From Clostridia bacterium (lineage in GTDB: Bacteria; Bacillota; Clostridia; Oscillospirales; CAG-272), in the NCBI GenBank assembly GCA_017501245.1, contig JAFVXI010000019.1, positions 1-38,527 on the forward strand: a DNA stretch of 38,527 nucleotides, read 5' to 3'. Within the stretch, counting starts at the first letter, position 1, and every line of letters starts with the position of its first letter. Shown here piece after piece: positions 6,366 through 22,579 of this stretch. Made by a program: the position numbers and the translations under genes. The notes beneath the pieces were generated by a model. The model ran no database searches. It was not told where the DNA came from and saw nothing but the letters and a program-made list of their open reading frames with translations.

Positions 6366-6689
6366 ATGAAGAGAGGAAAAACTAAATACACGGCACAGAT
6401 GCCGAGGAGGCTATACTCCTTCTTTAGCTCCTATTCGGGCGAGGGGGTTGCGAGCTTTTCGAAGTTTGCGAGGGCTATGGGCGTAACGCTCGGCGAGCTT
6501 GAGGGCTGGAGGAGGCACAAGAGGTTTAACGAGGCGTGGGCTGAATGCGAGGCGATAAGGCGGGACACCATCATCGACGGGGCGCTGTGCCGTAGGCTCG
6601 ACTCCTCCTTTGCGAAGCTGCTTATATCATCAGAGGAAAAGGAGGCGGTGAGCGACGGTGCGCTCGAGGTGCGAGTTGAGGTGGTTTAA
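6366..6689 (+). CDS. Probable terminase small subunit
   Basis: A 107-residue basic protein directly before the large terminase. The segment SFSKFARAMGVTLGELEGWRRHKRFNEAWAECEAIRRD looks like a helix-turn-helix followed by a helical region, as in small terminase subunits that recognise phage DNA and hand it to the motor. ATG at 6366 follows AGGAGGACGT; the in-frame GTG at 6351 lies within the ribosome binding site and is unlikely. The tail (SDGALEVRVEVV) ends as a short strand. The function comes mainly from position and the HTH-like segment; no family match is certain. Confidence 0.65.
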   Translation: MKRGKTKYTAQMPRRLYSFFSSYSGEGVASFSKFARAMGVTLGELEGWRRHKRFNEAWAECEAIRRDTIIDGALCRRLDSSFAKLLISSEEKEAVSDGALEVRVEVV

Positions 6690-6771
6690 GGAGGCGGCGA
6701 TGCCTGCCACCGTGCATTACACCACCGAGAATGATAATAATAATTTACATTTTCGGCATCTTTCGCCATCT

Positions 6772-6809
6772 ATTATGCATTATGCATTATGCATTCTGCA
6801 TTCAGCATT
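6772..6809 (+). repeat. ATTATGC microsatellite between terminase genes
   Basis: Five tandem copies of a 7-base unit read (A)TTATGCA, TTATGCA, TTATGCA, TTCTGCA, TTCAGCA. They end 9 bases before the large terminase start, where a Shine-Dalgarno sequence would be expected. None is visible. Confidence 0.75.
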
Positions 6810-6817
6810 AAAACACT

Positions 6818-8179
6818 ATGACGCTATCAATTAAGGTAACTAAAAAGCAAAAGACGTTTATAGACGCCGCCGAGGCAGAGGTGCTGTTCGGAGGGGCGGC
6901 GGGCGGAGGAAAATCCTACGGGCAGGTCGTTGACGCTCTGCTCTTTGCCCTGAGATACCCCGGCTCGAAGCAGCTGATCCTGCGGCGTTCGTTTGCCGAG
7001 CTTGACAAGTCGCTGATCCGAGCGGCGCTCTCGCTCTATCCGAGGGAGATATGGAGCTTTAACTCCTCCTCGCACGTCGGCAGATTTATTAACGGATCGA
7101 TCATCGACTTCGGCTACTGCGCCACAGAAAGCGACGTCTATCAATATCAGTCTGCGGAATACGACTGCATCCGCTTTGACGAGCTGACGCACTTCACCGA
7201 GGCGCAATACGTCTATCTGCTCTCACGCCTCAGGGGCGCAAACGGCTATCCGAAGCAGGTCAAGTCCACGACAAACCCCGGCGGCATCGGCCACACCTGG
7301 GTGAAGGAGAGGTTCGTTGACCCGGCGCCCAGGGGCTCCGCCTTTGCCGCACTCGGGATGACGAGGATCTTTATCCCCTCCCTGCTTGACGACAACGCAT
7401 TTCTTACCGCTTCCGACCCAAATTACCGCACGAGGCTGCTTGCCCTGCCCGAAAGGGAGAGAAAAGCTCTGCTCGACGGCGACTGGGACATCTTCGAGGG
7501 GCAGTATTTCAGCGAGTTTTCAAGAGAGAGGCATATTATCGAGCCATTTGAGATCCCATCCTCCTGGCGCAGATACCGCACGCTTGACTATGGGCTCGAC
7601 CGCCTCGCCGTGCTTTGGATCGCTCTGTCGCCCGAGGGGAGAGCCTACGTCTACCGTGAGTACTGTGAGTCGGACCTTCCTATCAGCCGAGCGGCGGCAG
7701 CCATCCTCGAGAGGACGCCTAAGGGCGAGGAGATCTACGCAACGCTGGCACCGCCCGACCTCTGGTCGAGAAGCCAAGAGACGGGAAAGACGAAGGCTAG
7801 CCTCTTTTCTGAGTTTGGCGTCAACTTCACAAGGACCTCAAACGACCGCGAATGCGGCTGGCTCGCCGTCAAGGAGCTGCTCTGCCCGAGGGGCGGCGCA
7901 CCCTCGCTCTACATCTTTTCCACCTGCTTTGAGCTTATACGCTGCCTGCCTGCGCTCACGGTGGATAAATTAAAGCCCACCGACTGCTCTACCGAGCCGC
8001 ACGAGCTGACCCATGCGCCCGACGCACTGAGGGGCTTTGCCATCTATCACACACGCCCGAGCGAGGAAAGAGGAGCGGTGAGGCGCACCCACTGGAGCCC
8101 CGATATGTGGGAGGACTACCGAGCCGCAGACGAAGCAGGCAGGATATATTTAAAGCAAAAATACGGAGAACCAACGTGA
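6818..8179 (+). CDS. Phage terminase large subunit
   Basis: A 453-residue DNA-packaging motor. The N-terminal ATPase has a Walker A GGAAGGGKS (25-33), an arginine-bearing LILRRSF (about 53-59), Walker B YDCIRFDE (115-122) and coupling motif STTNPGG (150-156). The C-terminal nuclease domain starts near RTLDYGLD, with Asp257 a likely metal ligand, and a second acidic site probably in HAPDALRG near the end. The length is normal. ATG at 6818 is the only possible start because an in-frame TAA lies 9 bases upstream, yet no ribosome binding site precedes it. The stop overlaps the portal GTG (GTGA). Family is certain. Confidence 0.93.
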   Translation: MTLSIKVTKKQKTFIDAAEAEVLFGGAAGGGKSYGQVVDALLFALRYPGSKQLILRRSFAELDKSLIRAALSLYPREIWSFNSSSHVGRFINGSIIDFGYCATESDVYQYQSAEYDCIRFDELTHFTEAQYVYLLSRLRGANGYPKQVKSTTNPGGIGHTWVKERFVDPAPRGSAFAALGMTRIFIPSLLDDNAFLTASDPNYRTRLLALPERERKALLDGDWDIFEGQYFSEFSRERHIIEPFEIPSSWRRYRTLDYGLDRLAVLWIALSPEGRAYVYREYCESDLPISRAAAAILERTPKGEEIYATLAPPDLWSRSQETGKTKASLFSEFGVNFTRTSNDRECGWLAVKELLCPRGGAPSLYIFSTCFELIRCLPALTVDKLKPTDCSTEPHELTHAPDALRGFAIYHTRPSEERGAVRRTHWSPDMWEDYRAADEAGRIYLKQKYGEPT

Positions 8180-9951
8180 AAACACCAAAGAACAACAAAG
8201 CCGAGCGCCTCGCCTTCTTCAAGGAGCTTTACGACAATGCGAGAATGAACTCGGCAGAGCTATACGCCTCCTTTGACAGAGCCATGAGCCAATACCGAGG
8301 CTCGACCGAGATCGATGGCTCCGACGAGGCGGCGCTGACCGTCAGAAACATCACCTACGAGATCGTGGAGAGCCAGATCGGCTCGGACATCCCGATGCCG
8401 AAGGCGGAGGCGGCGGCTTACAGCGAGGCGAGAGAGCGAAACGCACACAACATCGAGCGCCTCCTACGCTCGGTCAGAGAAAAGCTGCCCTTCGAGGAAA
8501 TGAACGATATGGACGAGCGCTACACCTACATCTACGGCGGCAGCGTCTGGTACGCCGAATGGGACAACTCGGAGGAGCATCTCGGCGAGGTCGGCTCGGT
8601 GAAGGTCCACTGCCTCTCCCCCCGCGATCTCGTCCCTCAGCCGGGCATCTATTCGATAAGGGATATGGAATACTGCTTCTTAAGATTTACCACCACGCGC
8701 GGCGAGATAATGAGAAGATATCGCCTCTCGGAGGAGGAGGTCGAGCTATGCGAAAGCGAATTTGACTATCACACTGGCGGCGAGGAGGGCGACACCGTTT
8801 CGCTCGTCATCTGCTTCTGGCGCGACGAGGAGGGCGAGGTCGGCAGATTTATCTTCTCGGGAGAGCTGACGCTCTCTGACCTGCCGAGATACTACACCCG
8901 CCGAGCCGAGGTCTGCTGCACCTGCGGCGAGGAGAGCTGCTCCTGCGGAGGAAAAAGGCAGACGCTTGAGATAAAAAAGGAGCTGCTCGACCCCGAGATA
9001 CTGAGCTTCTACACGGGCGACGTTATCCCCGAGGTGAGGCTGACGGAGGAGGGGGCCGTAGAGACGGGGCTGATCCCCCGCGAGGTGCCCTACTACACGC
9101 CGAAGCTCTTCCCCATCGTCATCCGAAAGAACACCTCGGGCGAGGGCTCGCTCTTCGGTCAATCCGACTGCGACTACATAAGGCCGCAGCAGCAGGCGAT
9201 AAACAAGGTCGAGTCGAGGATATTAAAGAAGCTGCTTCGCGCGGCGGTCACGCCCATTGTGCCGGAGGATGCGACGGTTACGGTCAACAACTCCGTTTTC
9301 GGCCAGGTGATCAGAATGAAGCCGGGCGAATCCGCCCAGCAGTACGGTAAGGTCGACACGACGCCCGACGTCAGCCAGGACATCATAGAGGCGGAGAGGC
9401 TCTACGACCATGCAAAGAGGGTGATCGGAATTTCCGACGCCTACCAGGGCATAGACTCCGCATCAGGTGAGTCGGGCGTCGCAAGGCAGCTAAGGATCTC
9501 GCAGGCATCGGGCAGGCTTGAATCGAAAAAGATGATGAAGCACACGGCATACGCCGAGCTTGACAGGATCATCTTCTGCCTCTACCTCGCATTTGCCGAC
9601 GAGCCGAGGCGCCTGACCTACAAGGACGCATACGGCAGGGTTCATTCGAGTGAATTCTGTCGGTACGACTTCCTCCGCTTTGACCATCTGGCGGGCGAAT
9701 ACTACTTCGACGACGACTACCTCTTCGGAGTTGACCTCAACGGCGGCTCGGAATACCAGCGAGAGGCGCTGTGGGAGAGAAATCTCGAAAACCTCAAGGC
9801 AGGCACGCTCGGCGACCCCTCCGAGCCCATCACCCTCCTAAGGTACTGGCAGGCGCAGGAGAGAGCGCATTACCCATACGCGAGAGAAAACGTCGAATAC
9901 TTCAAGGCGGAGATCGGAAGGGAGGCTGACCGTGAGTACGACCGGATTTAA
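8176..9951 (+). CDS. Phage portal protein
   Basis: A 591-residue head-tail portal, the ring through which DNA enters the capsid. The segment GQSDCDYIRPQQQAINKVESRILKKL followed by an inward helix and ARQLRISQASGRLESKKMMK is characteristic of P22-type portals. The GTG start at 8176 overlaps the terminase stop (GTGA) and has GGAGAA 7 bases upstream; the longer in-frame start at 8107 lies inside terminase. A cysteine cluster CCTCGEESCSCGG (about residue 255) looks like a small metal-binding insert and is unusual in a portal. Identification is strong from motif and position. Confidence 0.88.
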   Translation: MKTPKNNKAERLAFFKELYDNARMNSAELYASFDRAMSQYRGSTEIDGSDEAALTVRNITYEIVESQIGSDIPMPKAEAAAYSEARERNAHNIERLLRSVREKLPFEEMNDMDERYTYIYGGSVWYAEWDNSEEHLGEVGSVKVHCLSPRDLVPQPGIYSIRDMEYCFLRFTTTRGEIMRRYRLSEEEVELCESEFDYHTGGEEGDTVSLVICFWRDEEGEVGRFIFSGELTLSDLPRYYTRRAEVCCTCGEESCSCGGKRQTLEIKKELLDPEILSFYTGDVIPEVRLTEEGAVETGLIPREVPYYTPKLFPIVIRKNTSGEGSLFGQSDCDYIRPQQQAINKVESRILKKLLRAAVTPIVPEDATVTVNNSVFGQVIRMKPGESAQQYGKVDTTPDVSQDIIEAERLYDHAKRVIGISDAYQGIDSASGESGVARQLRISQASGRLESKKMMKHTAYAELDRIIFCLYLAFADEPRRLTYKDAYGRVHSSEFCRYDFLRFDHLAGEYYFDDDYLFGVDLNGGSEYQREALWERNLENLKAGTLGDPSEPITLLRYWQAQERAHYPYARENVEYFKAEIGREADREYDRI

Positions 9952-10660
9952 GGACTACTTAGACGACTACCTAAAGCTGCTCGCAAAAAAGAACAGAGAG
10001 CTGACCCTCGAGGAATACGCAAGAGAGGACATCGCCGAGGCAGACCGCACGGCGGCGAGGAGGCAGGCAGCCGTGCTCGGCTCGGCTTACAAAAACACGA
10101 CGAGATACGGCAAGGAGCGGGAGCGGATGCTCGAGCGAGGGCTCGGAGAGGGCTACGCCGCCTATCTCAAAAAGCGCTCGGGCGAAAACGTCAAGGCGGC
10201 ATTCAAGGATATAGCGAGCGACAGGGCGGCAAAGCTTTCGGACGCCTACTCCGGCTACGAAAGCTATCTTAAAAGCTATAAGAATAAGGAGGACAGCAGC
10301 ATAAGGCAGATAACCGAGCAGTTCACAAGACAGATGGTGCTTGACCCCGAGACGGTTATCAGATATTCGCTTGAGAGGGGGCTCAGCGCCGAAGGCGCAG
10401 AGAGAGCTGCCGCCGCCGTTTACGATAGCGTTAAGGGCGCAGTCAAGAAGGATATCATAGACCGCATCTATAACCTCGAATATACACCCGAGACGGCGGC
10501 AAGCTACGCCGCACTCGTTGGCCTCAAGGACGAGGACATCGCCGAGCTTGTCAGGGCGGCTGAGGACTACCACAAAAAATTCAAGGAATATTCAAAGGAT
10601 TATCTTAAATATCTTGAGGACCTCTCCGACCAGTCGCTAAAGCCGATATGGCAAAGGTAG
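9932..10660 (+). CDS. Conserved-position helical virion protein, function unknown
   Basis: A 242-residue protein, almost entirely helical and rich in Lys, Glu, Ala and Tyr, with no signal peptide or membrane segment. It overlaps the end of the portal gene by 20 bases and starts with GTG after GGGAGG, so it is probably translated together with portal. Its place between portal and scaffold suggests a role in head assembly, such as an ejection or minor head protein. I do not recognise the family. Confidence 0.75.
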   Translation: MSTTGFKDYLDDYLKLLAKKNRELTLEEYAREDIAEADRTAARRQAAVLGSAYKNTTRYGKERERMLERGLGEGYAAYLKKRSGENVKAAFKDIASDRAAKLSDAYSGYESYLKSYKNKEDSSIRQITEQFTRQMVLDPETVIRYSLERGLSAEGAERAAAAVYDSVKGAVKKDIIDRIYNLEYTPETAASYAALVGLKDEDIAELVRAAEDYHKKFKEYSKDYLKYLEDLSDQSLKPIWQR

Positions 10661-10727
10661 GAACAGGGAAAAAAGGCTCTATCGGCAGGGCGAGAGGGCC
10701 TAAAGCCAGAGAGGTTGATCGACAAGA

Positions 10728-10828
10728 CTTATAGCTGAAAGGCTTATCGACAAAACAAGAAGGCTTGTCGACCAAGGCTTATAGCTGAAAGGCTGAGCGC
10801 CAAAGCGAGAAGGCTTGTCGACCAAGGC
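10728..10828 (+). repeat. Two-unit 50-bp direct repeat
   Basis: CTTATAGCTGAAAGGCT (10728, 10778) and AGAAGGCTTGTCGACCAAGG (10758, 10808) alternate with an exact 50-base period. The block fills the gap between the helical protein and the 50-aa gene. No gene is seen in it. Confidence 0.8.
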
Positions 10829-10914
10829 GAGCTAATAAAGCAGGAATAGAGCCACAATAAGAAAACTATACTTTACATTTTCCAAGAAAAACACATAAAG
10901 AAAGGAAAAGAGAA

Positions 10915-11067: not shown

Positions 11068-11070
11068 GGC

Positions 11071-12129
11071 GTGAGAGCGACGGAAGAGAGTTTGATCGAG
11101 GCAGGCGCCGACATACCCACAGACACGGGTGACGGGATCGTAGCGGGCATAGGCAAAAGCACCGACACGGGTGACGTGACCGTAGCAGGCATAGGCAAAA
11201 GCACCGACACGGGTGACGGGATCGTAGCTGGCATAGGCGAAAGCACCGACACGGGTGACGAAATCAAGGCTACCGAAAGAGATAAAGGGGCGACGGATGC
11301 AGAGATAAGCTATCCTACGGATGGCATAGGTGCAGAGCCCGAAGGAAATGCCGACGTTTTCGGCGAGGGTAGCGAGATATCCGATCACGGTGAGGACGGC
11401 GAGATGCTTGTTGACGGCGAGGCTGCCGATTCGGCCGAGGGAGGCGAGACGGGTGGAGAATTTGACCCGTTCGGAGCTTATTATGCCGACGGTGAGGAGG
11501 ATGCCGACGGGCTTGCCCGTAATTACGGCGAGGCTTCAGCAGATGGGCTTATTGATAGGAGCGGCGAGGGCGCTGACGACCCCTCCGTTGACGGTGACAC
11601 ACCCGATACGGACGAGGGCTGTGAGAGTGAGGACAACACCGAAAGTAGAGACGGCAAAGCGGCGCAAAACGGCGAAGCCGAGGGTGGCGATGAGGGAGCA
11701 GACGAGGCTCCGAGCGAGGGCGACGACGCCCATGCCACGGACGGCGGCGAGGAGGATGATAACGGCGTCGGTTCTGCCAAGGAAGGACCGACCGAGGCCG
11801 ACTACGAGAGGATGGCTGCCGACGATCTTGCGCTCTTAAAGTCGCTCTTCCCCGAGCTTATGCCCATCGGGCATTTAGCCGAGATAAAGGGCTCGGCGAG
11901 ATACGGAGCGCTGCGTGACCTCGGGCTCAGCCCGAAGGAGGCGTATCTTGCGACGAGGGAGGCGCGCCCGAGAGTAAACGGCAGAGCGCATCTCACCTCC
12001 TCCGTGCCAAGAGGTGCAGGGACACCAAGTGGCACAATGACACACTCGGAGCTTCTCGGGATGAGGGAGCTCTTCCCCACCCTTGGCGACAACGAGCTAC
12101 ACAGACTACACAAAAAGGTTAATCGATAA
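11071..12129 (+). CDS. Acidic repeat-containing scaffold-like protein
   Basis: A 352-residue, extremely acidic protein. Residues about 16-62 are tandem copies of the 14-residue unit TDTGDGIVAGIGKS. Then comes a long Asp/Glu/Gly-rich disordered region (to about 240), and finally a helical C-terminal domain (about 245-352) with DLALLKSLFPELMPIGH and GLSPKEAYLATREARPR. The position between portal and major capsid and the acidic N-region plus helical basic C-end fit a capsid scaffolding protein; that is inference. GTG start with AGGAGG 9 bases upstream. The repeat unit shares nucleotide words with the membrane protein at 20418. Confidence 0.7.
   Translation: MRATEESLIEAGADIPTDTGDGIVAGIGKSTDTGDVTVAGIGKSTDTGDGIVAGIGESTDTGDEIKATERDKGATDAEISYPTDGIGAEPEGNADVFGEGSEISDHGEDGEMLVDGEAADSAEGGETGGEFDPFGAYYADGEEDADGLARNYGEASADGLIDRSGEGADDPSVDGDTPDTDEGCESEDNTESRDGKAAQNGEAEGGDEGADEAPSEGDDAHATDGGEEDDNGVGSAKEGPTEADYERMAADDLALLKSLFPELMPIGHLAEIKGSARYGALRDLGLSPKEAYLATREARPRVNGRAHLTSSVPRGAGTPSGTMTHSELLGMRELFPTLGDNELHRLHKKVNR
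11113..11265 (+). repeat. 42-bp in-frame tandem repeat
   Basis: Three and a half copies of a 42-base unit contain ACACGGGTGACG and GGCATAGGCRAAAGC. The period is a multiple of three, so copy number can vary without a frameshift. The words ACGGGTGACGAAATC and GGCATAGG recur in the gene at 20418-21422. Confidence 0.8.
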
Positions 12130-12141: not shown

Positions 12142-13197
12142 ATGATAATTTATTCAAAGAGTAACGGCTACTCCAACGCAGCCGTCGGCAAGCTCGAGAC
12201 ACCCATCAAGATGGTTATCGAGCATGAGAGCGACCTACTCACCAAGAAGGGCGGCATCTGCGACTGGCTCTTCAACGTCGAGAAGAGCGGAAAGTTTGGC
12301 GAAACTATAATCGGCCAGAGCGAGTTCGAGGTCTTCCAGGCGACGGCGGAGGGCGCTGCGGCAGAGGCAGACTCTATCAGAGAGACCTACCGCAAGTTCA
12401 TCGAGCATATCCAGTTTATGAAGGAGTTTACCATCACGGCGGAGATGATGGAGGACGCAAACTACGGCGTAGCGCAGGATGCGAAGCGCAGAGCCGAGAA
12501 CTTCACCCGTGCTTACTACAAGACGATGCACAAGATCTGCGAATACGCACTCGCAAACGGAACGAGCGAGAGCGGCACCTTCGCAAAGGCGAAGCTCGAC
12601 CTCACCGCCCCCGACGGCATGGCTCTCTTCTCAAAGGACCACTGCTACGGCACCGAGGGCGGAGCGATCGGTAATCAGTCCAACTACTTCTGGGGCGACA
12701 TCTTCAAGTCCGGCACGGGCAGGGTGGCCTCCACCGCAGCCTTCGAGGAGGCGCTCTCCGAGCTTTCGGTCAAGCTCAGAAATATGAAGGATGAAAACGG
12801 CGAGCCCCTCGGCTATACCGCCGACACCATCATCCTCCCCGGCAACAGACCCATCGCAGAGCAGATCGCAAAGAAGGTCTGCGGCACGGCGGGTGCGCTC
12901 GGCTCGGGCAACAACGACATCAACCTCAACTACGGCGCCTGGAACGTCATCGTTATGCCCGGCTGGCAGGCTTCTGACGACCGCGTGATGATCATGTCGA
13001 GCGAGGCAAACAAGAACCTCTCGGGCAACATGTTCTTCAACCGTATACCCCTCACCGTCACCAACTGGGTGGACAACCACACCGGCAACTATATGTGGTG
13101 CGGCAGATGCCGCTTCGGCGTAGGCTTCGGCAACTATAAGCACATCCTGCTCGCCGTCGACTCCGCATCCGAGGTGAGCGGAGCTACCGCACTCTGA
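12142..13197 (+). CDS. Major capsid protein
   Basis: A 351-residue shell protein. Its place after the scaffold-like gene, its size, and a region with a long helix (about 95-130, FTITAEMMEDANYGVAQDAK...) followed by alternating strands ending in a Gly-rich segment (GRCRFGVGFGNYKH) fit the HK97 fold, of the Mu gpT-like kind. A strong ribosome binding site (AAGGAGAAAAGAAA) suits a highly expressed protein. No N-terminal protease-cleaved arm is obvious. The identification rests on context and general resemblance. Confidence 0.8.
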   Translation: MIIYSKSNGYSNAAVGKLETPIKMVIEHESDLLTKKGGICDWLFNVEKSGKFGETIIGQSEFEVFQATAEGAAAEADSIRETYRKFIEHIQFMKEFTITAEMMEDANYGVAQDAKRRAENFTRAYYKTMHKICEYALANGTSESGTFAKAKLDLTAPDGMALFSKDHCYGTEGGAIGNQSNYFWGDIFKSGTGRVASTAAFEEALSELSVKLRNMKDENGEPLGYTADTIILPGNRPIAEQIAKKVCGTAGALGSGNNDINLNYGAWNVIVMPGWQASDDRVMIMSSEANKNLSGNMFFNRIPLTVTNWVDNHTGNYMWCGRCRFGVGFGNYKHILLAVDSASEVSGATAL

Positions 13198-13334: not shown

Positions 13335-13585
13335 CGGGCGAAAACCTGACACGGGTCGCCTCTTGTAGCTAAGATGCGCCTCCGGCCAAGTAATGAAAAA
13401 GAGGCGAAAACCTGACACAGGTCGCCTCTTGCCGCTAAAATGCGCCTCCGGCCGAGTAATGAAAAGAGGCGAGAAACCTGACACGAGTCGCCTCTTGCCG
13501 CTAAGATGCGCCTCCGGCCAAGTAATGAAAAGAGGCGAGAAACTTAACACGGGTCAGCTCTTGCCGCCTGAGGTCGCCTCCTATC
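13335..13585 (+). repeat. 65-66-bp tandem repeats with long hairpins
   Basis: Four copies start near 13335, 13401, 13466 and 13532. Each holds GAGGCG...ACCTG-aca-CAGGT-CGCCTC, a strong two-part stem, followed by GCTAAGATGCGCCTCCGGCC and AAGTAATGAAAA. Variation inside the stems is partly compensated. The block fills the gap after the capsid gene and may act as a processing or attenuation element. The open frames through it on both strands are artefacts. Confidence 0.85.
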
Positions 13586-13619: not shown

Positions 13620-14459
13620 ATGACATATAAACAGCTGAAAAGAGCGGTCGCACGCCTTGGCTTTGAGGGTGAGATAGGCGACGAGGAGACGCTCAGATAC
13701 GCCCTCAGACGTGCGATGCGCACGGTGTATCTCGACAGGCCCGTCGTGCGCACGGCTGCCATTTCGGTACCGCCTTTTGAGGGGAGGCTCTACCGTGCGA
13801 CCTACGTGCATTCGGGCAAGGGCGGCGAGACCTTCAATATGCGTGGCAGAGCCTATTCCTTTACCGTTTCGGGCAAGGGGCAGTACCTTATCACGGACGG
13901 AAGGATCAGGCTGATACGTGAGTTTAACACCGAGCTTTCCGACTTTAAGGACTTCACCCATAGCGAGGAGTTTTCCATCACGTTTATCGGCGGCTCAGCC
14001 TTTACCGTCTACGGGCTCTGCTCCTTCCCCTACGTTATCGGAAATGATAAGTCCGATATCCCGACGTACAGAAAAAGGAGCTGCTACAAGATCACCGCCT
14101 ACGTCCCCGACTACCTCTGCCCGCACGGCGAGGCGACGGACACGAGAGGACTTCCTATTCCGGGTGCGCAGGTGCTGGGCGGCGAGCTGATCTTACCCGA
14201 GGGCTACTCCGGCGTCGTGAACCTCAGCTACTGCCGAGCTCCCGAGGATAAGGAGGCGTGGGCTGAGGAGGAGATCTTAGAGCTTGCGCCCGAGGTCGAG
14301 GAGCTTTTGCCGCTGCTGGTCGCCTCCTACGTCTGGCTCGACGACGACCCGGAGAAGGCGCAGTATTACCTCTCATTATATAAGGACGGAATAGCCACGC
14401 TGCGCATCTATATGCCGAAGGAAGCCGGCACGAGGCTCGTGACGAATGGGTGGGCGTGA
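13620..14459 (+). CDS. Head-completion / connector-like virion protein
   Basis: A 279-residue protein. The N-terminal helical part (TYKQLKRAVARLGF...DEETLRYALRRAMRTVYLDR) and the C-terminal helices (ELLPLLVASYVWLDDDPEKAQYYLSLYKDG) resemble adaptor proteins that close the portal. A beta-rich middle domain (about 45-190) separates them. It directly follows capsid and precedes the hub-like gene, with overlap TGATG. ATG with a purine-rich AAAGGAAAAGAAGAG upstream. The role is inferred from order. Confidence 0.6.
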   Translation: MTYKQLKRAVARLGFEGEIGDEETLRYALRRAMRTVYLDRPVVRTAAISVPPFEGRLYRATYVHSGKGGETFNMRGRAYSFTVSGKGQYLITDGRIRLIREFNTELSDFKDFTHSEEFSITFIGGSAFTVYGLCSFPYVIGNDKSDIPTYRKRSCYKITAYVPDYLCPHGEATDTRGLPIPGAQVLGGELILPEGYSGVVNLSYCRAPEDKEAWAEEEILELAPEVEELLPLLVASYVWLDDDPEKAQYYLSLYKDGIATLRIYMPKEAGTRLVTNGWA

Positions 14460-17107
14460 TGGCAGGAATTTCCAAAAAGACAGAATACACACGTGCCTAC
14501 CGTGACATAGTCGGGGTCGAGCTTGGCGGCAGCGGCACGGGCATTTCAAAAAACCGCCTCTCATACGCGGAGAACGTCTGGCGTGATTACAGGGGCGAGG
14601 GCGGCGGAATAATCGAGAGCGTGCCCGGCTTCAGGCGGCTCGCCGACCTCGGAGCGAGGATACATTCCATCGTGTGGCATTCGCCATCGCCGACCGATGA
14701 GAGGCTACTGATCCATGCGGGCTCGGCTCTATATTCGATGCCGCTCTCGGAGCGTGACTCATTTACCCCGGGTGACCCGATCTGCAAGCTGCCCGACAGA
14801 AAATGCCCTCACTTCAAGGGGGCGGGGCGGGTCTACTACCTCACGGGCAGCGACGTCATAGCCGTCGAGGGCGAGGGCAAGGCGCTCTCCTTGAATTCGG
14901 GCGAGCTATCCCCCTACGAGCCCATCCTCTACCAAAACGGCTCTATCCTCGAGCAGCGCAACCTCCTCACCCCCTCGGCGAGGGAGCGCTATATCGTCAC
15001 GGACCCGTCGAGGAACGTGTGGGAGACGCCCGGCATACGCTACACCGTGCTTGACGAGGGGGAGGGCACCTGTGCCGCAACCGGCTTTGACCGTGACTAC
15101 GAGGGCGTGCTGTCGGTGCCTTCGGTGACGGTTATCGCAGGGCGTGAATACCGTGTGACGGAGATAGGCGATTACGCCTTCTTTCTTGCTACTCTCGTCA
15201 GCGAGATCAGGATAGCAGAGGGGGTAGAGAGGATAGGTGCATTCGCCTTCTCATACTGTAAGAGGGCGACGGCTATCTACCTGCCGAGGACGGTAAAGGA
15301 GATAGGAATGGCGGCGTTTGACAACTGCGGAGAGCTGACCGACTGCTACCTCGGTATCGGACTATCGAAGATAGGCTCCTCACCCTTCCACCTTTGCGAT
15401 AGCCTGAATAACGTGCATTACGCAGGCGTCGAGGAGCAGCTGAAGAAGCTAGAGGGCTACGACCAGATCTCGGATAAGGAGTTTATTTTCGGTGACGAGG
15501 ATCGCACCGCGCTGATTAAAATGCCTCTGTTTTCGCACCCGTATGAGGTGTTTGACCTCTACGACGGCGAAAAGACGTGTGACTTCGAGCCCGTATATGA
15601 AAACGACGTGGCGGCAGCCATCATAGCCAGATGCCCCGGCGGATGGGATAGAATACTGACGCTGACGGCAAAGGTCGATCTCGGCAGCTCCCCATTCAAG
15701 GAGGGGCTCGAGGGCGTGGATGCCATAACCGGAGCGACGGTTGCCGAGAGCTTTGACAACAGAGTTTTCCTCGCCGGAAGCCCTGGGCTTTACAACACCG
15801 TGTTCTACTCTGCTCCGCTGTCGGATAGGGAGGGCGACCTCCTATACTTCGGTGAGCATAACTACCTGACCGACGGCGTAGGCGAGCATCCGGTGGTGGC
15901 ACTGCTTGCGGCAGGTGAGAGGCTTGCCGTCTTTAAGGCAGGGGACGACGGCTCGGGCAGCATATTTTATCACACGCCGTCGACGACCTCCGACTCCTAT
16001 ATGCCGAGGATATATCCGACGAGCTACGTGCATTCGGGGATAGCGGCGCAGGGGGCGGCGATAAACTTCCTCGACGATCCGGTTTTCATCTCCGAGGGCG
16101 GCCTATTTGCGCTCGATAAGGTGAACATCGACAAGGAGAGGAGCGTGGTTTGCAGGTCGGATAATGTAAATTATGATTTACAAAAGCTCGATTTGAGGAC
16201 TGCGATGCTTGCAGAATGGTGCGGATATCTGGTCGTTGCCGTGGGCGACTGCTTCTACCTTGCCGACTCGAGAGCCACCTTCCGCCATCCGAGCGGCGCC
16301 ACCGAATACGAATGGTTCGTCATCAAAGGAGTCGGCAGCCACGAGGGCGACGAGGAGGTCTGGCGCTTTGATTCATACGAGACGGGTGACGTTTTCGCAC
16401 ATCCTGACGAGGGCGGGATCTTCGAGGGAGTTGCTTATTCCGTCGACACGGGTGGCAAAACGGTGTACTACGGAATTATCGACGGCGTAAAATATTCCCT
16501 CTACCGAACGGGAGAAAGGAGGGGCGGCACCCTATCTCTGCCTACTGCTATATACGGCAGGGGCGAGCTGCTCTTCTTCGGCACGGAGTCGGGCGCTCTT
16601 CTGCTCTTCAACAACGACAAGAGGGGCGTCACACCCAAGCATCTTGCATCTATGGAGGGCTTTGACGCCGAGGAATACAAAAGGGTGATGGGTCACAGAC
16701 TGCACCCCTCCTTCTACCCATTTGACGGGCACGCCGTGAGATACGCCGTCAAGACCGCTTATGACGACTGCGGCATCCCACACCTGCGCAAAAGCACGGT
16801 GAAGAATTCCCTGACGGTGAAGGTCGGGGCTCTGTCCGGCGCACTCCTACACTGCGAGGTCGGCACCGAGAGCTCGGACTACAAGGGCGTGACGAGCTTC
16901 CCCGCCTCGGCGCTTTCCTTCGACGAGCTGGATCTCGCATCCTCCTCGCTGCTCGTGTCGGATCACGAGACCGTGCCTATCCCCGAGAGGGCTAAGGGCT
17001 GGGTCGAAAAGCAGATAACCTTCTACACCGACGGCTACGCGACCCCGATAGGCATCTACAATATCGCCTACCGCTACACCGTGTCGGGCAGGGTTAAGAG
17101 GAGCTGA
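14459..17107 (+). CDS. Large virion hub-like protein with LRR_5-type insert
   Basis: An 882-residue protein with alternating short beta segments throughout, suggesting a beta-propeller (for example GFRRLADLGARIHSIVW, ERLLIHAGSALYSM, RVYYLTGSDVIAV). Such proteins seal the portal in short-tailed phages (P22 gp10-like). Residues about 215-330 form three to four BspA-type leucine-rich repeats: YRVTEIGDYAF, GVERIGAFAFSYC, TVKEIGMAAFDNC and GLSKIGSSPFHLC. ATG at 14459 overlaps the previous stop; a GTG at 14450 is also in frame. Cysteine-bearing LRR_5 domains are more usual in bacterial surface proteins. Confidence 0.7.
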   Translation: MAGISKKTEYTRAYRDIVGVELGGSGTGISKNRLSYAENVWRDYRGEGGGIIESVPGFRRLADLGARIHSIVWHSPSPTDERLLIHAGSALYSMPLSERDSFTPGDPICKLPDRKCPHFKGAGRVYYLTGSDVIAVEGEGKALSLNSGELSPYEPILYQNGSILEQRNLLTPSARERYIVTDPSRNVWETPGIRYTVLDEGEGTCAATGFDRDYEGVLSVPSVTVIAGREYRVTEIGDYAFFLATLVSEIRIAEGVERIGAFAFSYCKRATAIYLPRTVKEIGMAAFDNCGELTDCYLGIGLSKIGSSPFHLCDSLNNVHYAGVEEQLKKLEGYDQISDKEFIFGDEDRTALIKMPLFSHPYEVFDLYDGEKTCDFEPVYENDVAAAIIARCPGGWDRILTLTAKVDLGSSPFKEGLEGVDAITGATVAESFDNRVFLAGSPGLYNTVFYSAPLSDREGDLLYFGEHNYLTDGVGEHPVVALLAAGERLAVFKAGDDGSGSIFYHTPSTTSDSYMPRIYPTSYVHSGIAAQGAAINFLDDPVFISEGGLFALDKVNIDKERSVVCRSDNVNYDLQKLDLRTAMLAEWCGYLVVAVGDCFYLADSRATFRHPSGATEYEWFVIKGVGSHEGDEEVWRFDSYETGDVFAHPDEGGIFEGVAYSVDTGGKTVYYGIIDGVKYSLYRTGERRGGTLSLPTAIYGRGELLFFGTESGALLLFNNDKRGVTPKHLASMEGFDAEEYKRVMGHRLHPSFYPFDGHAVRYAVKTAYDDCGIPHLRKSTVKNSLTVKVGALSGALLHCEVGTESSDYKGVTSFPASALSFDELDLASSSLLVSDHETVPIPERAKGWVEKQITFYTDGYATPIGIYNIAYRYTVSGRVKRS

Positions 17108-17109
17108 GG

Positions 17110-17152
17110 CGCCATCACCGATGGATCTTAATATCCCGGCATACCGATGGCG
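17110..17152 (+). other. Inverted repeat after the hub-like gene
   Basis: CGCCATC (17110-17116) pairs with GATGGCG (17146-17152) across a 29-base loop. There is no T run, so termination is doubtful. Confidence 0.35.
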
Positions 17153-17227
17153 ACACAGGGCGTATTTAGCATCACGTACCCACAGGGATGGATAGCTCTT
17201 TTGATGCATTTTCAAGCCTCTGATAAC

Positions 17228-17385: not shown

Positions 17386-17494
17386 CGTACAAGTGGGTAC
17401 GAGTGCGGCTTTACACTACTTTTTTAACACCCGTATGGGGATAAATATAGATTTTTGCTCTCCCCCGAGCGGGGAGGGAGAAAGGAAAAACGCA

Positions 17495-18130
17495 TTGACG
17501 GTTACAAAAATAACAGACGCCGATATCAGAGATCTTCTGATCTCCTCGCTCCCCTCGCGCCCGACGGCGCCCACCTCCTTTGGCGGAGCGGGATATACGG
17601 CGAAGGATATGAAGGCGGCGTTTGACAGGCTTCCGCTTTATATCATAGGGAGGTTTAACGCCCTGCTCGAGGATATCGCAAGGGAGGGCGAGGGCGGCGT
17701 GTCCGAGTCTATCCTCACCGGCATATCCGACGGGCATAGCCTTAAGGAGCTGTTCTCGGACATCAGGTCGGGCGAATTTGCAAATTACTTAACCGTGCTT
17801 GGCAAGAGCCTCGCCGAGGTGATCCTCGAGCTTGAGGAGGAGCTATCCGCACTTGAGGGTTCGCTCGGCACGTCGAGCGCTGAGGTCGGCAGACTCGGCG
17901 AGGGCATCAGAGAGCTTGAGGCAGCGGTTGCCGAAGCTACGTCGGCGCTCGAGGGCACGAGGGATGAGCACACAGAGAGGATGGACACGCTCGGCTCGGA
18001 GATTGAAGCACTTAAAGAAAAACACGAGGAGGACGTCGCGGCCATCAGAGCGGCGATAGAGAGCCCGACCGAGCTTACGCTCGATTTGGGCGGACCCGAG
18101 GAGCTTACAGGCGGAGGTGAAGCAATATGA
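17495..18130 (+). CDS. Coiled-coil virion appendage protein
   Basis: A 211-residue protein. The N-terminal part (GAGYTAKDMKAAFDRLPLYIIGRFNALLEDI) is a segment I associate with N-termini of phage tail-appendage proteins. Residues about 110-190 form a long coiled coil (ELEEELSALEGSLG..., IEALKEKHEEDVAAIRAAI), a likely trimeric stalk. I choose the TTG at 17495 because AAAGGA lies about 9 bases before it; the in-frame GTG at 17393 begins in the repeats and would add an implausible leader. The end overlaps the next gene (ATGA). Confidence 0.65.
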   Translation: MTVTKITDADIRDLLISSLPSRPTAPTSFGGAGYTAKDMKAAFDRLPLYIIGRFNALLEDIAREGEGGVSESILTGISDGHSLKELFSDIRSGEFANYLTVLGKSLAEVILELEEELSALEGSLGTSSAEVGRLGEGIRELEAAVAEATSALEGTRDEHTERMDTLGSEIEALKEKHEEDVAAIRAAIESPTELTLDLGGPEELTGGGEAI

Positions 18131-18600
18131 TAAGCATTAAGCACAGGAGGGGCGACGAGGCCGGCTGGCTCGACTCTGACCCCATCATTCCCGACGGCGA
18201 GCTGGCACTGACGAGGCTTGAGAAGGGCTACGACCTCAAGATAGGCGACGGCGTTACCCCCTACTCGAAGCTGCCCTCCTTCATAGGAAGGTCGATATCC
18301 AGCGAGGAGGAATACCCCACCGTGACGCTCTCGCATCTTGACGACGTGAGGCTCTCCTTCGTTGAATGGCTCGAGGTCGTCCTTGACCACGCATCGGCGG
18401 ACAACTACACGGCTATCCTCGCCTTTGACACGCTCTCGGACACGCCCATCAGCTTTGACTCCACGATGGAGATCCTCTTCAGCGGAAGGGACGTCGAGGA
18501 CGGCGTGTTTATCCCCAAGACGGATATGCATTACACCCTCTTTTTCTGGAAGGACGGACGAATGAACTGCCACGTGAGGGGAGTGAGCATCGGTGTTTAA
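18127..18600 (+). CDS. Tail-fibre-type protein with KIGDG attachment domain
   Basis: A 157-residue protein. The first 55 residues (IKHRRGDEAGWLDSDPIIP, GELALTRLEKGYDLKIGDGV) match the small domain at the start of many phage fibres, with the pattern RRG...W...P.L..GE......KIGDG.T...LP. The remainder is beta-rich with no recognisable receptor-binding domain. Starts at ATGA, overlapping the coiled-coil gene. Probably a short fibre or fibre-attachment protein. Confidence 0.7.
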   Translation: MISIKHRRGDEAGWLDSDPIIPDGELALTRLEKGYDLKIGDGVTPYSKLPSFIGRSISSEEEYPTVTLSHLDDVRLSFVEWLEVVLDHASADNYTAILAFDTLSDTPISFDSTMEILFSGRDVEDGVFIPKTDMHYTLFFWKDGRMNCHVRGVSIGV

Positions 18601-19774
18601 GAGGATGCTGCATATCCTTGACGAGGAGTCGTCGGCGGGGGGCGGTGCGACCAAATACTCCGCCTGCGGTGAGGGAGGCATCAAGCTCTCAACAAGCGGC
18701 GAGGCAGAGCTGACCTCTCTGACGGTTTACGGTGCGGATATCGATTACAGCTGCTACGACGTCGGCACGGGGGCTGAGCGAGGGCTCGGCTACGACGACG
18801 GTGACAAGGTCAAGCTCGACCTACGTGTGCATGGCAGGTGCGTCATCGACGGGTATGAATTTGCGAGGCTGATGCGTGAGGGCGGCTCGCCCGCCTACGG
18901 AGGAGAGTACGGCGAGGACTACTTCATCTACCACGGCTCGGCGACGGAGGATTATCCCGTCATATCAAGCGACAGGCTGATGATCGGAAGCACTGTCCAT
19001 CGCCTTGAATTCATCGCCCTCTTAGAGGAGGACTACGCCTCGGGCGGCAGGCTGACCCCGGGGCTACACATCGCCTCGACGGCATTCTCGCCTAACGCCG
19101 TTTACGCCATCGGAACGGGTGTCGGTGAATTCAGCTTCAGCGGAAGCTCTCGCTCTGCGGCACAGTTTGCAGGCCTTATCCACAAGGCGGCGCCGATAGC
19201 CCTTGACCTGCCGATACGCTACGACTCCTTAAAGCTCTATTCGACGGCTGACATACCCGTGGGCGACTACGTCGGCAGGCATATCTCGGTCGAGCTCTCA
19301 CGCCCCCTGCTTGCGATAGGCGAGGCGAGCGACACCCTTGAGGCTATCTCCGGCAGGGTGACGAGGGCTATAGGCGAGGCAATTATTGAGGACACGGGTG
19401 ATATTTCCGCCTGCTACTACTACGGTTATCCCTGCTTCAAGCTCCCGATGCCGGAGGGTGCTGTGGCTGATCAGATGGGCATCGAGGGCTACGCCTGGTG
19501 CTACTCGGGCGAGGAATTTGAATTTCTCGACCACGCCTTTGCGGTTGACGAGGCGACAGGGAGCATCTACGTTTATATCGATGAGGAAACGACCGAGCCC
19601 GAGGCTGCGATAGCCGAGCTTGTCGGCAGGCGGATAAAGTTTATACTCAAGGAGCCCTACGAGGAGATGGTGGAGGCGGCGGGCAACGTAGCGCTCCGAG
19701 ATGACGTCAGCTACGTTTACGTATGCTCGGAAAAAAGCCCCACCCTCGAGGTCAACTATAACATAAAGGAGTAA
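18593..19774 (+). CDS. Virion protein of unknown function (393 aa)
   Basis: A beta-rich, acidic protein with many Gly, Ser and Tyr residues (for example TSLTVYGADIDYSCYD, GVGEFSFSGSSRSAAQF). No signal peptide or membrane helix. GTG start overlaps the fibre gene, with GAGGGGAG about 9 bases upstream. The position after the fibre suggests another receptor-binding or fibre part; the family is not recognised. Confidence 0.7.
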   Translation: MFKRMLHILDEESSAGGGATKYSACGEGGIKLSTSGEAELTSLTVYGADIDYSCYDVGTGAERGLGYDDGDKVKLDLRVHGRCVIDGYEFARLMREGGSPAYGGEYGEDYFIYHGSATEDYPVISSDRLMIGSTVHRLEFIALLEEDYASGGRLTPGLHIASTAFSPNAVYAIGTGVGEFSFSGSSRSAAQFAGLIHKAAPIALDLPIRYDSLKLYSTADIPVGDYVGRHISVELSRPLLAIGEASDTLEAISGRVTRAIGEAIIEDTGDISACYYYGYPCFKLPMPEGAVADQMGIEGYAWCYSGEEFEFLDHAFAVDEATGSIYVYIDEETTEPEAAIAELVGRRIKFILKEPYEEMVEAAGNVALRDDVSYVYVCSEKSPTLEVNYNIKE

Positions 19775-19778
19775 AAGA

Positions 19779-20009
19779 ATGTACGGAAGGATCAATGAAA
19801 ACGGCGCTCTTGAAACCTACGGCAAGAGATACGTAAGGGTGGGTAGGCGCCTCGTCGTCAACCCGGACAAGGAGGTCATGCTCTCCTTAGGCTACAAGCC
19901 CATAGAGGCAAGCGAGGCTCCGACGGCCGGCCGAGGCGAGGCACTCGTGCTTGACTACGTCGATAAGGGCGATAGGATAGAGGCAGTCTTTTCGATCATA
20001 AGGAGATAA
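19779..20009 (+). CDS. Small phage protein (76 aa)
   Basis: Starts MYGRINENGALETYGKRYVR and contains DKEVMLSLGYKPIEASEAP. This resembles the short proteins often found after fibre genes in Firmicutes phages, of unknown function. Strong site AAGGAGTAAAAG before ATG. Four bases after the preceding stop and one base before the next start, so clearly one transcript. Confidence 0.7.
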   Translation: MYGRINENGALETYGKRYVRVGRRLVVNPDKEVMLSLGYKPIEASEAPTAGRGEALVLDYVDKGDRIEAVFSIIRR

Positions 20010-20010
20010 T

Positions 20011-20409
20011 ATGACCACTATACTTTACAAATTAAGGAATAAGTTCGGCGTTATCAGGAGGATCTCCGACACGGGCGGCACTCGCCTCTCGATAGATATA
20101 CTCGGTGGCGGCAACGGTAGAATAGAAATCGGGTCTAGGCACGCAGCTATTACGGGCGGCAGGGGCATCATCTCGCTTGAGGGTATGCCCGACGGAGAAT
20201 ATACACCGAGGCTCTACGACGAGGGCGGCGCCTCGAGGCTCGAGGGGATAGTCAAGGAGGGCGGATCGGTCAAGCCCGCCCCCTCAGACAGGGCTCTGCT
20301 CAGCTATATCACCGACAGGCTCGAGGAGATCGAGGGTGACTACGCCCTCTTGAAGGAAGAAATAGAAAGGATAAAGGCGAGGGAGCAGAAGCCCCTCTTC
20401 GCCGACTAA
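20011..20409 (+). CDS. Virion-cluster protein with C-terminal coiled coil (132 aa)
   Basis: A beta-rich N-terminal half (TRLSIDILGGGNGRIEIG, GIISLEGMPDGEYTPRLYD) is followed by a helical, charged end (ITDRLEEIEGDYALLKEEIERIKARE). ATG with AAGGAG 5 bases upstream. It sits between a small fibre-associated protein and the membrane proteins. The family is not recognised. Confidence 0.65.
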   Translation: MTTILYKLRNKFGVIRRISDTGGTRLSIDILGGGNGRIEIGSRHAAITGGRGIISLEGMPDGEYTPRLYDEGGASRLEGIVKEGGSVKPAPSDRALLSYITDRLEEIEGDYALLKEEIERIKAREQKPLFAD

Positions 20410-20417
20410 GGAGGATT

Positions 20418-21422
20418 ATGAAAGGAATATTTAAGTTGATTTGCGCCACGCTTGCACTCGCAGGCATTCTCGCAGGCGTGGGGATCGGCGCTTCGGCGGC
20501 GGAGGATGAGATAGGCTTCAGCTATATCAGCGACGTTGATTATCCCGAGGGATACGTAAACGGTATAGAAAACGTCGCCGCATATGACGAGAATGAAGCA
20601 ACTGCACCCGACGTGGGTGAGGAGATCGGCGGCGCCACTACATACACCGGTGCTGAAAACGGTGTTGACAACACTCATACGGGTGACGAAATCTGTATAG
20701 AAACACCCGACACGGGTGATGAAATCGGCGGGAAAACGATCGCCTCGGACGGCGAAAATGAAGCATCTGCACCCGACGTGGGCGAGGAGATCGACGGCAC
20801 AGGCATAGGAGAAGCGAACGGCGGCACAAGCATAGGAGAAGTGAGCGGCGACGCAGGCATAGGAGAAGCGAGCGGAGATGGGGCGAGCATAGACACCGCA
20901 AATGGGGGCGAGGAAAACATTTTCGCCGCTATATACGGCTTTGCCTCGGAGAGGTCGGCGGAGATTTTTGCCCTGCTCTCCTTCATAGGCTCGCTCATCA
21001 TCGTCATCTGCTATAAGAGCGGCATTCTGCCCCTTTTACGCGAGGGGCTTGGAGGCATGCTCGGTGCAGTCGGAAAGCTGAAGGAGGGTGTCGCCGAGAG
21101 CGAGAGGCTCTCGAAGGAAACGAGCGAGGCGCTCAGCACGAGGCTCGGCGAGGCTGAATATATGATCGGAGGATTTTCCGAGAGGGTTGCCGCCATCGAG
21201 GCGGCGTGCGAGCTGACGGCAAAGAGGAGCGCCGAGACCTCCGACTTAAAGGAGCTTATCACGCTGGAGATAGATCTGCTCCACGACGTGTTTATGACGG
21301 CGGCACTGCCCCAGTATCTCAAGGAGTCCATCGGCGAGAGGGTCGGCGAGATGAAGAAGAGGCTCGGAGGAGCGGATAATTCGCAGGCGCCAAGGCTGAC
21401 GGAGGGAGTGGAAAATGCGTAG
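20418..21422 (+). CDS. Secreted/membrane-anchored protein with acidic repeats and coiled coil
   Basis: A 334-residue protein. Signal peptide (1-27, ending GIGASA). A repetitive acidic region (about 45-165) holds PDVGEEI, THTGDEI, PDTGDEI and a 9-residue repeat GIGEANGGT / SIGEVSGDA / GIGEASGDG. A single membrane helix lies at about 181-200 (FALLSFIGSLIIVICYKSG), followed by a cytoplasmic coiled coil ending in a conserved-looking DLLHDVFMTAALPQYLKESIGERVGEMKK. This topology suggests an envelope-spanning role. The position resembles the lysis end of a phage, but no enzyme domain is present. Confidence 0.7.
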   Translation: MKGIFKLICATLALAGILAGVGIGASAAEDEIGFSYISDVDYPEGYVNGIENVAAYDENEATAPDVGEEIGGATTYTGAENGVDNTHTGDEICIETPDTGDEIGGKTIASDGENEASAPDVGEEIDGTGIGEANGGTSIGEVSGDAGIGEASGDGASIDTANGGEENIFAAIYGFASERSAEIFALLSFIGSLIIVICYKSGILPLLREGLGGMLGAVGKLKEGVAESERLSKETSEALSTRLGEAEYMIGGFSERVAAIEAACELTAKRSAETSDLKELITLEIDLLHDVFMTAALPQYLKESIGERVGEMKKRLGGADNSQAPRLTEGVENA

Positions 21423-21762
21423 GCTGATCCTCAAGGGAGTTGGCATAGCTCTGTCGGTCCTGCCGCCGGCTATCGCCACCCTCAGCTACTTCCCCGTGTG
21501 GCAAAACAGGGGTACGGGTGCCGTTTTATCCGGCTTTACCGCCCTTGTTCTGCTGATTTGCGCAATACCGATATTCAAGGCTCTGCGCCGCCTCTTAGCC
21601 TCGCCTAGCGCCTGGTTATCCTGGCTTATCATCTTTATCCTCTTTTCGGCGCTGAACGGTATCGTCGAGGAGATGGTCGTTATCTCCTTTATAGGTTTTA
21701 TCTTCGGTGCCGCCGGGGCAGTTTGCTTCAAGATAGGAGAAAAGATCGATGACGGGGCTTGA
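21415..21762 (+). CDS. Small multi-helix membrane protein, holin-like
   Basis: A 115-residue protein with three to four hydrophobic helices (about 8-26, 36-57, 67-83, 87-105) and charged ends. ATG overlaps the previous stop (ATGCGTAG). Size and position fit a holin, but there is no endolysin gene nearby, so the assignment is tentative. Confidence 0.6.
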   Translation: MRRLILKGVGIALSVLPPAIATLSYFPVWQNRGTGAVLSGFTALVLLICAIPIFKALRRLLASPSAWLSWLIIFILFSALNGIVEEMVVISFIGFIFGAAGAVCFKIGEKIDDGA

Positions 21763-22579
21763 ACGTGGGCTATACTCGTCGGGCGAGCTGATGCGACGGG
21801 GCTACTCATTTCTTAGCGAAAACGCAAGCAAGGTGATCGCCGCACTGACTGCGCTTATCGCCGCTCTTCTGACCTTCTGGGAGCCGGTGCTGCCGAGCCT
21901 GCTCTCCGAGGCACTGACCGCAGAGCTTGCGGTGATGCTGGTCGCATCCTACGTGATATACTTTTCGCTTGAGGATGCGGGCGAGAGGCTTGGGCGCCAG
22001 AGCGATAAATACAAGGCGGCAAAGGAGAGCTACGACTCCGCCGCATCAAGGATCGGAGCGGATATGCTGGAGGAGCTTCGGCTCTATACCATCGACTACT
22101 CAAAGGAGGAGCTTGAATACAGGAGGCGCTCGCTGCTCCTCTCACACGGGGTGAGCGAGGAGGAAATCAGGGCATACGGACGAGGCGAGACAAGTGAGGC
22201 ACGTATAAAAAAAGCGGCAAGGGAGATAGACCGCCTGCGTGCGCTGAGGCTTGAGCCCTCGATGCTGCTCTCGGGTGCGAGGACGAGGGGCGCTCCACCG
22301 CTCGACCATCCGACGGCAAGAAAGCTCGTCTCGCTCCTCCTCGGGCTCTTGCCCTCCACGCTCTGCATGCTCTTTACGGTTTCTATGATCATCACGCCGA
22401 GGGCGGATATGGACACAGCGGCGATCATCTCGGGGATCGTAAAGCTCTCGACCCTGCCGATGATAGGCATGAGGGGCTACTCCTCGGGCTATGAATACGC
22501 AAGAGGCAGAGAGTGCGAGCTGATGGAGGCTAAGCGGGATATCCTGGAGGCGTTTTTAGCAAAGAATAATATAGCGTGA
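21749..22579 (+). CDS. Virion-cluster membrane protein (276 aa), function unknown
   Basis: Two N-terminal membrane helices (about 28-46, 52-73), a long charged helical cytoplasmic part (about 75-180) and two more hydrophobic segments (about 190-215, 225-240). Starts with ATG overlapping the previous gene. It is the last gene before the terminators. It could be a second holin-like or anchoring protein. Confidence 0.65.
   Translation: MTGLERGLYSSGELMRRGYSFLSENASKVIAALTALIAALLTFWEPVLPSLLSEALTAELAVMLVASYVIYFSLEDAGERLGRQSDKYKAAKESYDSAASRIGADMLEELRLYTIDYSKEELEYRRRSLLLSHGVSEEEIRAYGRGETSEARIKKAAREIDRLRALRLEPSMLLSGARTRGAPPLDHPTARKLVSLLLGLLPSTLCMLFTVSMIITPRADMDTAAIISGIVKLSTLPMIGMRGYSSGYEYARGRECELMEAKRDILEAFLAKNNIA

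Follow-up and report, generated by a model that had tools for sequence, protein, structure and literature searches.

A predicted short-tailed, gene transfer agent-like virion gene cluster across a genus of gut Clostridia

A virion gene cluster between host genes

We analysed a 38,527-nucleotide stretch of DNA from a Clostridia bacterium (contig JAFVXI010000019.1 of assembly GCA_017501245.1, here called the window). It is chromosomal and makes up all of contig C11 in a metagenome-assembled genome (MAG) of 1.94 Mb and 73% completeness. The window carries a 16-kb cluster of phage-like packaging, head and tail genes (positions 6351-22579), all co-directional and with open reading frames, between host genes (Table 1). 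An earlier reading of the window made without database searches (the sequence-only reading) had described terminase, portal, capsid, connector-like, hub-like and fibre-like genes in order with intact frames, and domain matches confirmed this, weakly in the case of the adaptor. Phage-like structural and packaging genes thus lie in a host chromosome, as in a gene transfer agent (GTA). A mis-binned phage contig was considered and rejected because host genes flank the cluster on both sides and the same flanks recur in relatives. Further downstream, the host genes include an SAH-nucleosidase-like gene (labelled from sequence), MtaB and HPRT.

Profile searches of the cluster proteins gave no match to integrase, repressor, replication or endolysin families, as the sequence-only reading had held, and the cluster proteins of the window showed no domain of a cell-wall hydrolase or toxin. 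Relatives in named phages were distant, the best match of the terminase large subunit (TerL) being 48.5% identical (a human faecal fragment) and the major capsid protein (MCP) having two matches only, at 26-28%. A sequence search against solved structures returned no match for MCP or the portal.

The tail type was assessed by structure prediction. The nozzle was modelled by AlphaFold2 from an alignment with 47 relatives (predicted local distance difference test score, pLDDT, 88.0; predicted template modelling score, pTM, 0.82) and compared with the PDB using Foldseek. Ranks 1 to 29 were all phage tail or portal-tail proteins, including T7 gp12, P22 gp10 and proteins of Sf6, SU10 and PhiM1 (best E 1e-17, probability 1.00; query-normalised template modelling (TM) score just 0.26-0.43, a low value that is expected because the protein has an extra domain). 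A BspA-type leucine-rich repeat (LRR) lies inside the nozzle in 40 of the 48 aligned members. No tape measure or tail tube was found, the only tape-measure matches being weak ones to a coiled coil, which agrees with the claimed lack of tail-tube genes and leaves a P22/T7-type nozzle directly on the adaptor. The short tail had been proposed from the P22-like portal; it now rests on a fold, because the predicted nozzle matches the tail proteins of T7 (gp12), P22 (gp10) and SU10, and the model supports a short-tailed (podovirus-type) virion.

The remaining proteins were assigned with varying confidence. The adaptor and scaffold assignments are tentative and mainly positional, with weak sequence support; a domain search gave no match for the scaffold-position protein, whose C-terminal part is the conserved portion. 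Profile searches likewise gave no domain match for the candidate distal fibre or the holin-like protein. The fold predicted for p21749 matched uncharacterised phage proteins only, such as one of Podoviridae sp. ctsUe5 (TM 0.73). The helical protein p9932 is not present in shorter clusters, and its weak Phage_int_SAM_5 match, below the cut-off, was not counted as an integrase. The scaffold-position and signal-peptide genes, 9.4 kb apart, have a common DNA motif encoding TDTGD-like peptides (11093-11260 and 20667-20726), and tandem repeats occur elsewhere in the window at 6141-6275 and 10702-10801 in addition to 13342-13581.

Table 1. Features of the cluster and of its host flanks, in window positions
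Feature	Positions	Strand	Evidence
Amino-acid (gln-type) ABC transporter: ATPase, permease, binding protein; host flank	423..3084	-	NCBIfam GlnQ/permease/GlnH-like, below equivalog cut-offs; flank also in other genomes
ABC-F family ATPase; host flank	3679..5655	+	NCBIfam ABC-F E 3e-130, over cut-off
Terminase small subunit (TerS)	6351..6689	+	phrog_3064 E 1.6e-6
Terminase large subunit (TerL)	6818..8179	+	phrog_979 4e-48, Pfam Terminase_3
Portal protein (longest frame; true start possibly downstream)	8107..9951	+	phrog_156 2e-25; P22_portal, SU10_portal 5e-6, just below Pfam cut-offs
Helical conserved protein p9932, role unassigned	9932..10660	+	phrog_35575 9e-5 (unknown function); family c14, 23 members
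Acidic repeat-rich protein, scaffold position	11071..12129	+	Position, composition; family c4, 44 members
Major capsid protein (MCP)	12142..13197	+	phrog_371 3e-7
66-bp tandem repeat, intergenic between MCP and adaptor	13342..13581		
Head-tail adaptor (connector)	13620..14459	+	SU10_adaptor E 0.027 (below cut-off), phrog_13046 0.0025, both weak; position; family c1, 59 members
Tail hub/nozzle, 885 aa, beta-propeller type	14450..17107	+	AlphaFold2 and Foldseek
BspA-type LRR_5 insert within nozzle, residues 237-324	15158..15421	+	Pfam LRR_5 2e-16
Putative fibre-base/coiled-coil protein	17393..18130	+	N-terminal half conserved, position; coiled-coil matches only weak
Tail-fibre protein, Mtd_N-like start	18127..18600	+	phrog_27786 tail spike 6.5e-5; Mtd_N 0.0015, below cut-off
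Candidate variable distal fibre/receptor-binding protein	18593..19774	+	Relatives variable between nozzle and membrane cassette
Small protein p20011, in some relatives	20011..20409	+	Family c17, 7 members
Signal-peptide, repeat, single-transmembrane, coiled-coil protein (sequence reading)	20418..21422	+	Family c7, 37 members; no strong domain match
Small multi-transmembrane protein p21415, putatively holin-like by size and place	21415..21762	+	Family c9, 36 members, prophage-like relatives included
All-helical membrane protein p21749	21749..22579	+	AlphaFold2 pLDDT 79.5; family also found in phages
Rad3/DinG-like helicase; host flank	22734..25151	+	TIGR00604 2e-43, below cut-off; in 63/69 genus genomes
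S-ribosylhomocysteine lyase (LuxS-like) and glycyl-tRNA synthetase; host flank	26029..27887	-	

Presence in the genus, locus and selection

Relatives of the cluster were sought in 69 genomes of the genus, assigned by GTDB-like placement with one genome per species and described by their record titles mostly as ruminant gut MAGs. The GTDB genus is probably UBA1740, because one member is Clostridiales bacterium UBA1740 (contig sequence identity checked). The name UBA1740 also occurs in passages of two papers on cattle, with no lineage stated there. TerL at 62% identity or more was detected in 55/69 genomes (a raw tally of 57 takes in two distant matches, in G065 and G087), MCP in 57 and either gene in 59; one of these, G091, was counted by TerL alone and a search for its portal found none. 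Of 22 near-complete genomes 19 had MCP, G070 among them only as a contig-end fragment, and the three lacking it (G027, G067 and G087) formed a single rpoB clade with a FastTree support of 1.0. Strain-specific presence, which the sequence-only reading had named as a finding that would count against it, was therefore not the pattern seen at the species level. Dozens of genomes show this same order of genes, which argues against chance.

A wider sample of the order was searched as well. An MCP relative was found in just 26 of its 295 genomes, and among the genomes listed that belong to the same family but to other genera, G129 had an MCP match and 20 had none; a further 249 genomes with no match lay outside this listing. 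In IMG/VR, TerL above 59% identity was present in 12 of 58 loci, on fragments of 4.5-12 kb, and at least one of these (L032) is a chromosomal piece because it includes the gln/ABC-F host flank. Five loci (L262, L264, L268, L279 and L386, the last from G129), seemingly of a sister genus, carry a second compact cluster with the order TerS-TerL-portal-scaffold-MCP-adaptor-nozzle-Lipase_3-XhlA-like. In L268 it adjoins an HTH regulator and Tex, and L262, L264 and L268 have parts of this downstream region in common. This second type could be another domesticated particle.

Chromosomal location was assessed by comparing the flanks of 49 cluster-bearing contigs (single linkage at 45% identity, at most 9 kb, same orientation). 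The upstream flank (ABC-F) was common to 15 contigs and the downstream flank (helicase) to 21, together 26/49, and helicase and MCP lay on the same contig in 21 genomes. All of these 26 for which rpoB was available fell into one rpoB clade (clade 1). The same cluster was thus found at the same locus in many relatives, whereas its locations vary in clade 2. Descent was assessed by comparing distances of cluster genes with those of rpoB. TerL distances tracked rpoB (Mantel r 0.82, 0/999 permutations, 40 genomes) as did portal distances (r 0.65, 0/999 permutations, 40 genomes), and both also tracked rpoB within each clade.

Selection was measured as the ratio of nonsynonymous to synonymous divergence (dN/dS), with medians taken from pairs with dS <1.2. 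Medians were 0.17 for TerL (32 pairs, range 0.07-0.32), 0.24 for the portal (38 pairs, range 0.06-0.48) and 0.18 for MCP (355 pairs, range 0.03-0.36), low for all three genes and not the relaxed selection that would have spoken for decay. No stops were found among the 63 MCP matches listed or among the TerL matches listed, while the helicase, taken for comparison, had a stop in 8 of the 63 matches listed. The earlier argument that intact frames speak against simple decay is upheld by these results. Vertical inheritance with purifying selection therefore describes TerL and the portal, while MCP distances are discordant (see below) and the clade 2 locus varies. Recent exchange between the clades was also considered as a reading of MCP dS, and was dropped because rpoB gave similar between-clade dS (medians 1.48 and 1.59) and MCP has biased codons.

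The host-like codon use claimed for the cluster was confirmed, with the exception of MCP, which is about as adapted as rpoB (codon adaptation within its own genome: MCP 0.72, rpoB 0.72, TerL 0.44). Among MCP, portal and TerL, MCP had the most rpoB-like codons in 39/39 genomes with data.

A domesticated particle and its alternatives

Recombinases were searched for across the 69 genomes using PF00589 and PF00239. PF00589 matched in 62/69 genomes, mostly on contigs other than that of the cluster, and PF00239 in 21/69, never on a main-cluster contig. The nearby integrase that could have overturned the sequence-only reading was seen in one genome only (PF00589 on G035:C14), where an extra stretch of ~8 kb with an integrase separates the cluster from the helicase gene (~189-197 kb). 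In the genome of the window (73% complete) the searches found a single tyrosine recombinase, located on contig C29, and no recombinase of the serine type. In line with the earlier claim, no attachment repeats were seen flanking the cluster: no bracketing direct repeat of at least 14 nt occurred among the repeat families listed (20/33), and the best repeat pair spanning the cluster was 73% identical over 22 nt. No genes for its own replication, integration or excision were seen in the cluster, although one may lie unlinked in a genome of this completeness, and the recombinase with att sites, repressor and replication module of a temperate prophage were not found.

Prophage-like relatives occur in the same genus. 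Divergent second MCP copies (44-54%) were found sporadically, in 5/69 genomes, and three second loci (G035:C28, G061:C55 and G011:C6) have a giant open reading frame (ORF) between portal and scaffold. In G035 this ORF is 2.7k aa long with ART-PolyVal and PBECR3 domains, and MT-A70, VRR-NUC and a reverse transcriptase lie nearby. Integrases are present on prophage-like contigs with TerL relatives (G001:C93, G060:C37 and G011:C6) and may belong to the same elements as these. A reverse transcriptase (L139:728-1780; RVT_1, one member tested) adjoins fibre genes of prophage-like relatives, and its protein family is found in five loci (L139, L260, L263, L270 and L273); beside such fibre genes it is possibly part of a diversity-generating retroelement.

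Together, genus-wide presence, co-divergence and selection support the earlier suggestion of a domesticated or GTA-like particle. We consider it likely that the cluster represents the virion module of a short-tailed phage that has been domesticated, is passed on vertically and is kept by nearly the whole genus as a GTA-like system, where GTA-like means that it would work like a GTA, with packaging of host DNA and delivery predicted from its genes. The encoded parts should suffice for a filled short-tailed head. Some host signal would start transcription of the operon and abundant synthesis of MCP; a small head would assemble from scaffold, portal and MCP, and TerS and TerL would fill it by the headful. 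The DNA packed would be that of the host chromosome, because no genes for replication, excision or integration were seen in the cluster. The adaptor, the nozzle with its LRR insert and the variable fibres would form the short tail, and particles would be released by the membrane cassette, perhaps with an unlinked host lysin or one from a second locus, and would deliver DNA to kin. The apparent inheritance of particle genes with no genes for viral multiplication or movement suggests that the particle serves the bacteria as a tool, most probably for moving DNA from cell to cell. A more specific version, in which the genus (and perhaps its sister genus) holds an independently domesticated podovirus-type GTA that has co-diverged with its hosts and uses the LRR nozzle and exchangeable fibres to aim DNA at kin, is one we put forward tentatively, at slightly less than even chances.

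Several observations weigh against this interpretation. The particle, its packaged DNA and its transfer are predictions from genes, and the genomes used are draft MAGs or comparable assemblies, with each species represented once. TerL and MCP searches left 10/69 genomes without the cluster, and G003 and G068 (two gaps checked) retain the gln/ABC-F locus with no cluster there. TerLs of the prophage-like type reach 65-67% identity, which makes identity of TerL insufficient as a diagnostic by itself. In clade 2 the flank groups are small (2 or 3 genomes) and many contigs group with no other, and the element has therefore moved in that clade, where several contigs end too early to judge the flank. 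MCP distances did not follow rpoB overall (r -0.10, 799/999 permutations, 41 genomes; r -0.01 minus the three most divergent) or in clade 1 (r -0.03), but did so in clade 2 (r 0.75, 15 genomes); rate shifts or allele replacement of MCP would explain the clade 1 discordance. Prophage-like copies show the same MCP codon signal, so we dropped codon adaptation as proof of domestication, and the signal argues against decay, not for domestication. In G005 the gene order is circularly permuted (L393, L106 = G005:C14) to scaffold-MCP-adaptor-nozzle-fibres-membrane genes-TerS-TerL-portal, the genes overlapping tightly and p9932 having no match there; this order could have arisen by tandem duplication with loss or through a circular intermediate. 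No lysin was found in a search confined to the cluster.

Other explanations were weighed against the same evidence. A domesticated particle with another use, packing DNA without delivering it and serving in killing or signalling as a PBSX-like particle, would fit the conservation and selection evidence equally well, and variable fibres beside a conserved head and nozzle fit target selection either way. The authors describing the Faecalibacterium GTA (FpGTA) leave the same alternative open (PMC12946183). We judge it unlikely here, as the packaging and nozzle genes are complete and under purifying selection, which suggests that filling with DNA and its ejection are of importance, and as neither a cell-wall hydrolase nor a toxin domain was detected in the window cluster.

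A still-mobile prophage or capsid-forming satellite, moved by a remote or host recombinase into a favoured site, would account for the shared insertion locus in clade 1 and the differing loci in clade 2, and the G005 permutation, the integrase-bearing stretch beside the G035 cluster and the prophage-looking relatives point the same way. Near-ubiquity and the co-divergence of TerL and portal with rpoB speak against it; other main-cluster contigs carry no PF00589 or PF00239 match, no replication, repressor or excision genes or bracketing repeats were seen in the window, and the divergent prophage-like copies are sporadic. This explanation appears a little less probable than a killing or signalling particle. 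A decaying prophage remnant, suggested by the lack of most phage modules, was rejected because the frames are open and dN/dS is low between species, to which the rpoB-like codons of the capsid gene in 39/39 genomes can be added, and we regard it as very improbable. If the domesticated GTA-like module is the correct interpretation, a second genus of Clostridia has retained a podovirus-type particle in most of its species, and on the more specific version above podovirus-type GTAs would be a recurrent host trait of gut Clostridia and not a peculiarity of Faecalibacterium. Co-divergence, selection and codon adaptation would then be evolutionary evidence for a long-term host benefit, some 60 genomes would be available in which to study particle evolution, loss and fibre diversity, and why hosts keep such particles would become a testable question.

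Comparison with known systems

The nozzle fold is like those of P22, T7 and SU10, and the portal is of the P22/SU10 type (just below the Pfam cut-off); these phages are free viruses with replication and lysis genes. The prophage-like relatives within the genus (G035:C28, G061:C55 and G011:C6) have TerL, portal and MCP homologous to those of the cluster, and some also have the p21415/p21749 membrane genes; they differ in their giant ORF and, in G035, also in MT-A70, VRR-NUC and reverse transcriptase. Capsid-forming phage-inducible chromosomal islands (cf-PICI) carry integrase, regulator and primase beside their head genes and use a helper tail, whereas none of these three genes was found here and the cluster has its own nozzle. 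RcGTA and other alphaproteobacterial GTAs are vertically inherited, intact virion clusters with no mobility or replication genes, and the cluster is like RcGTA in all of these respects. RcGTA and its kin have a siphovirus-like tail and hosts of another phylum, unlike the short tail here. PBSX of Bacillus subtilis is a defective phage particle of a Gram-positive host. It has a long tail, kills and does not inject, according to the FpGTA report (PMC12946183), and the cluster differs from it in encoding a short-tail nozzle.

No other podovirus-type GTA was found in the literature searched, which had subscription journals and preprints outside its scope, and the closest described system is FpGTA (Borodovich et al. 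2026, Nat Commun, January 2026; PMC12946183), likened here by its description to a cluster known from genes alone. Gram-positive gut GTAs have been known only since January 2026, from packaging data in one genus. FpGTA is described there as podovirus-like, with a compact operon of TerS, TerL, portal, scaffold and MCP and without replication genes, and it was present in 12/12 Faecalibacterium genomes examined. Its particles are ~40 nm and carry ~9 kb of DNA; FpGTA I spans 10.5 kb, and a second locus of 5.5 kb holds structural and lysis genes, among them fibre, holin and endolysin (PMC12946183). Compared with this description, the cluster belongs to another genus and is a single 16-kb unit including nozzle, fibres and membrane cassette, with no lysin found therein. 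It is like FpGTA in its Gram-positive gut Clostridia host, its compact podovirus-like packaging and head operon and its lack of replication genes.

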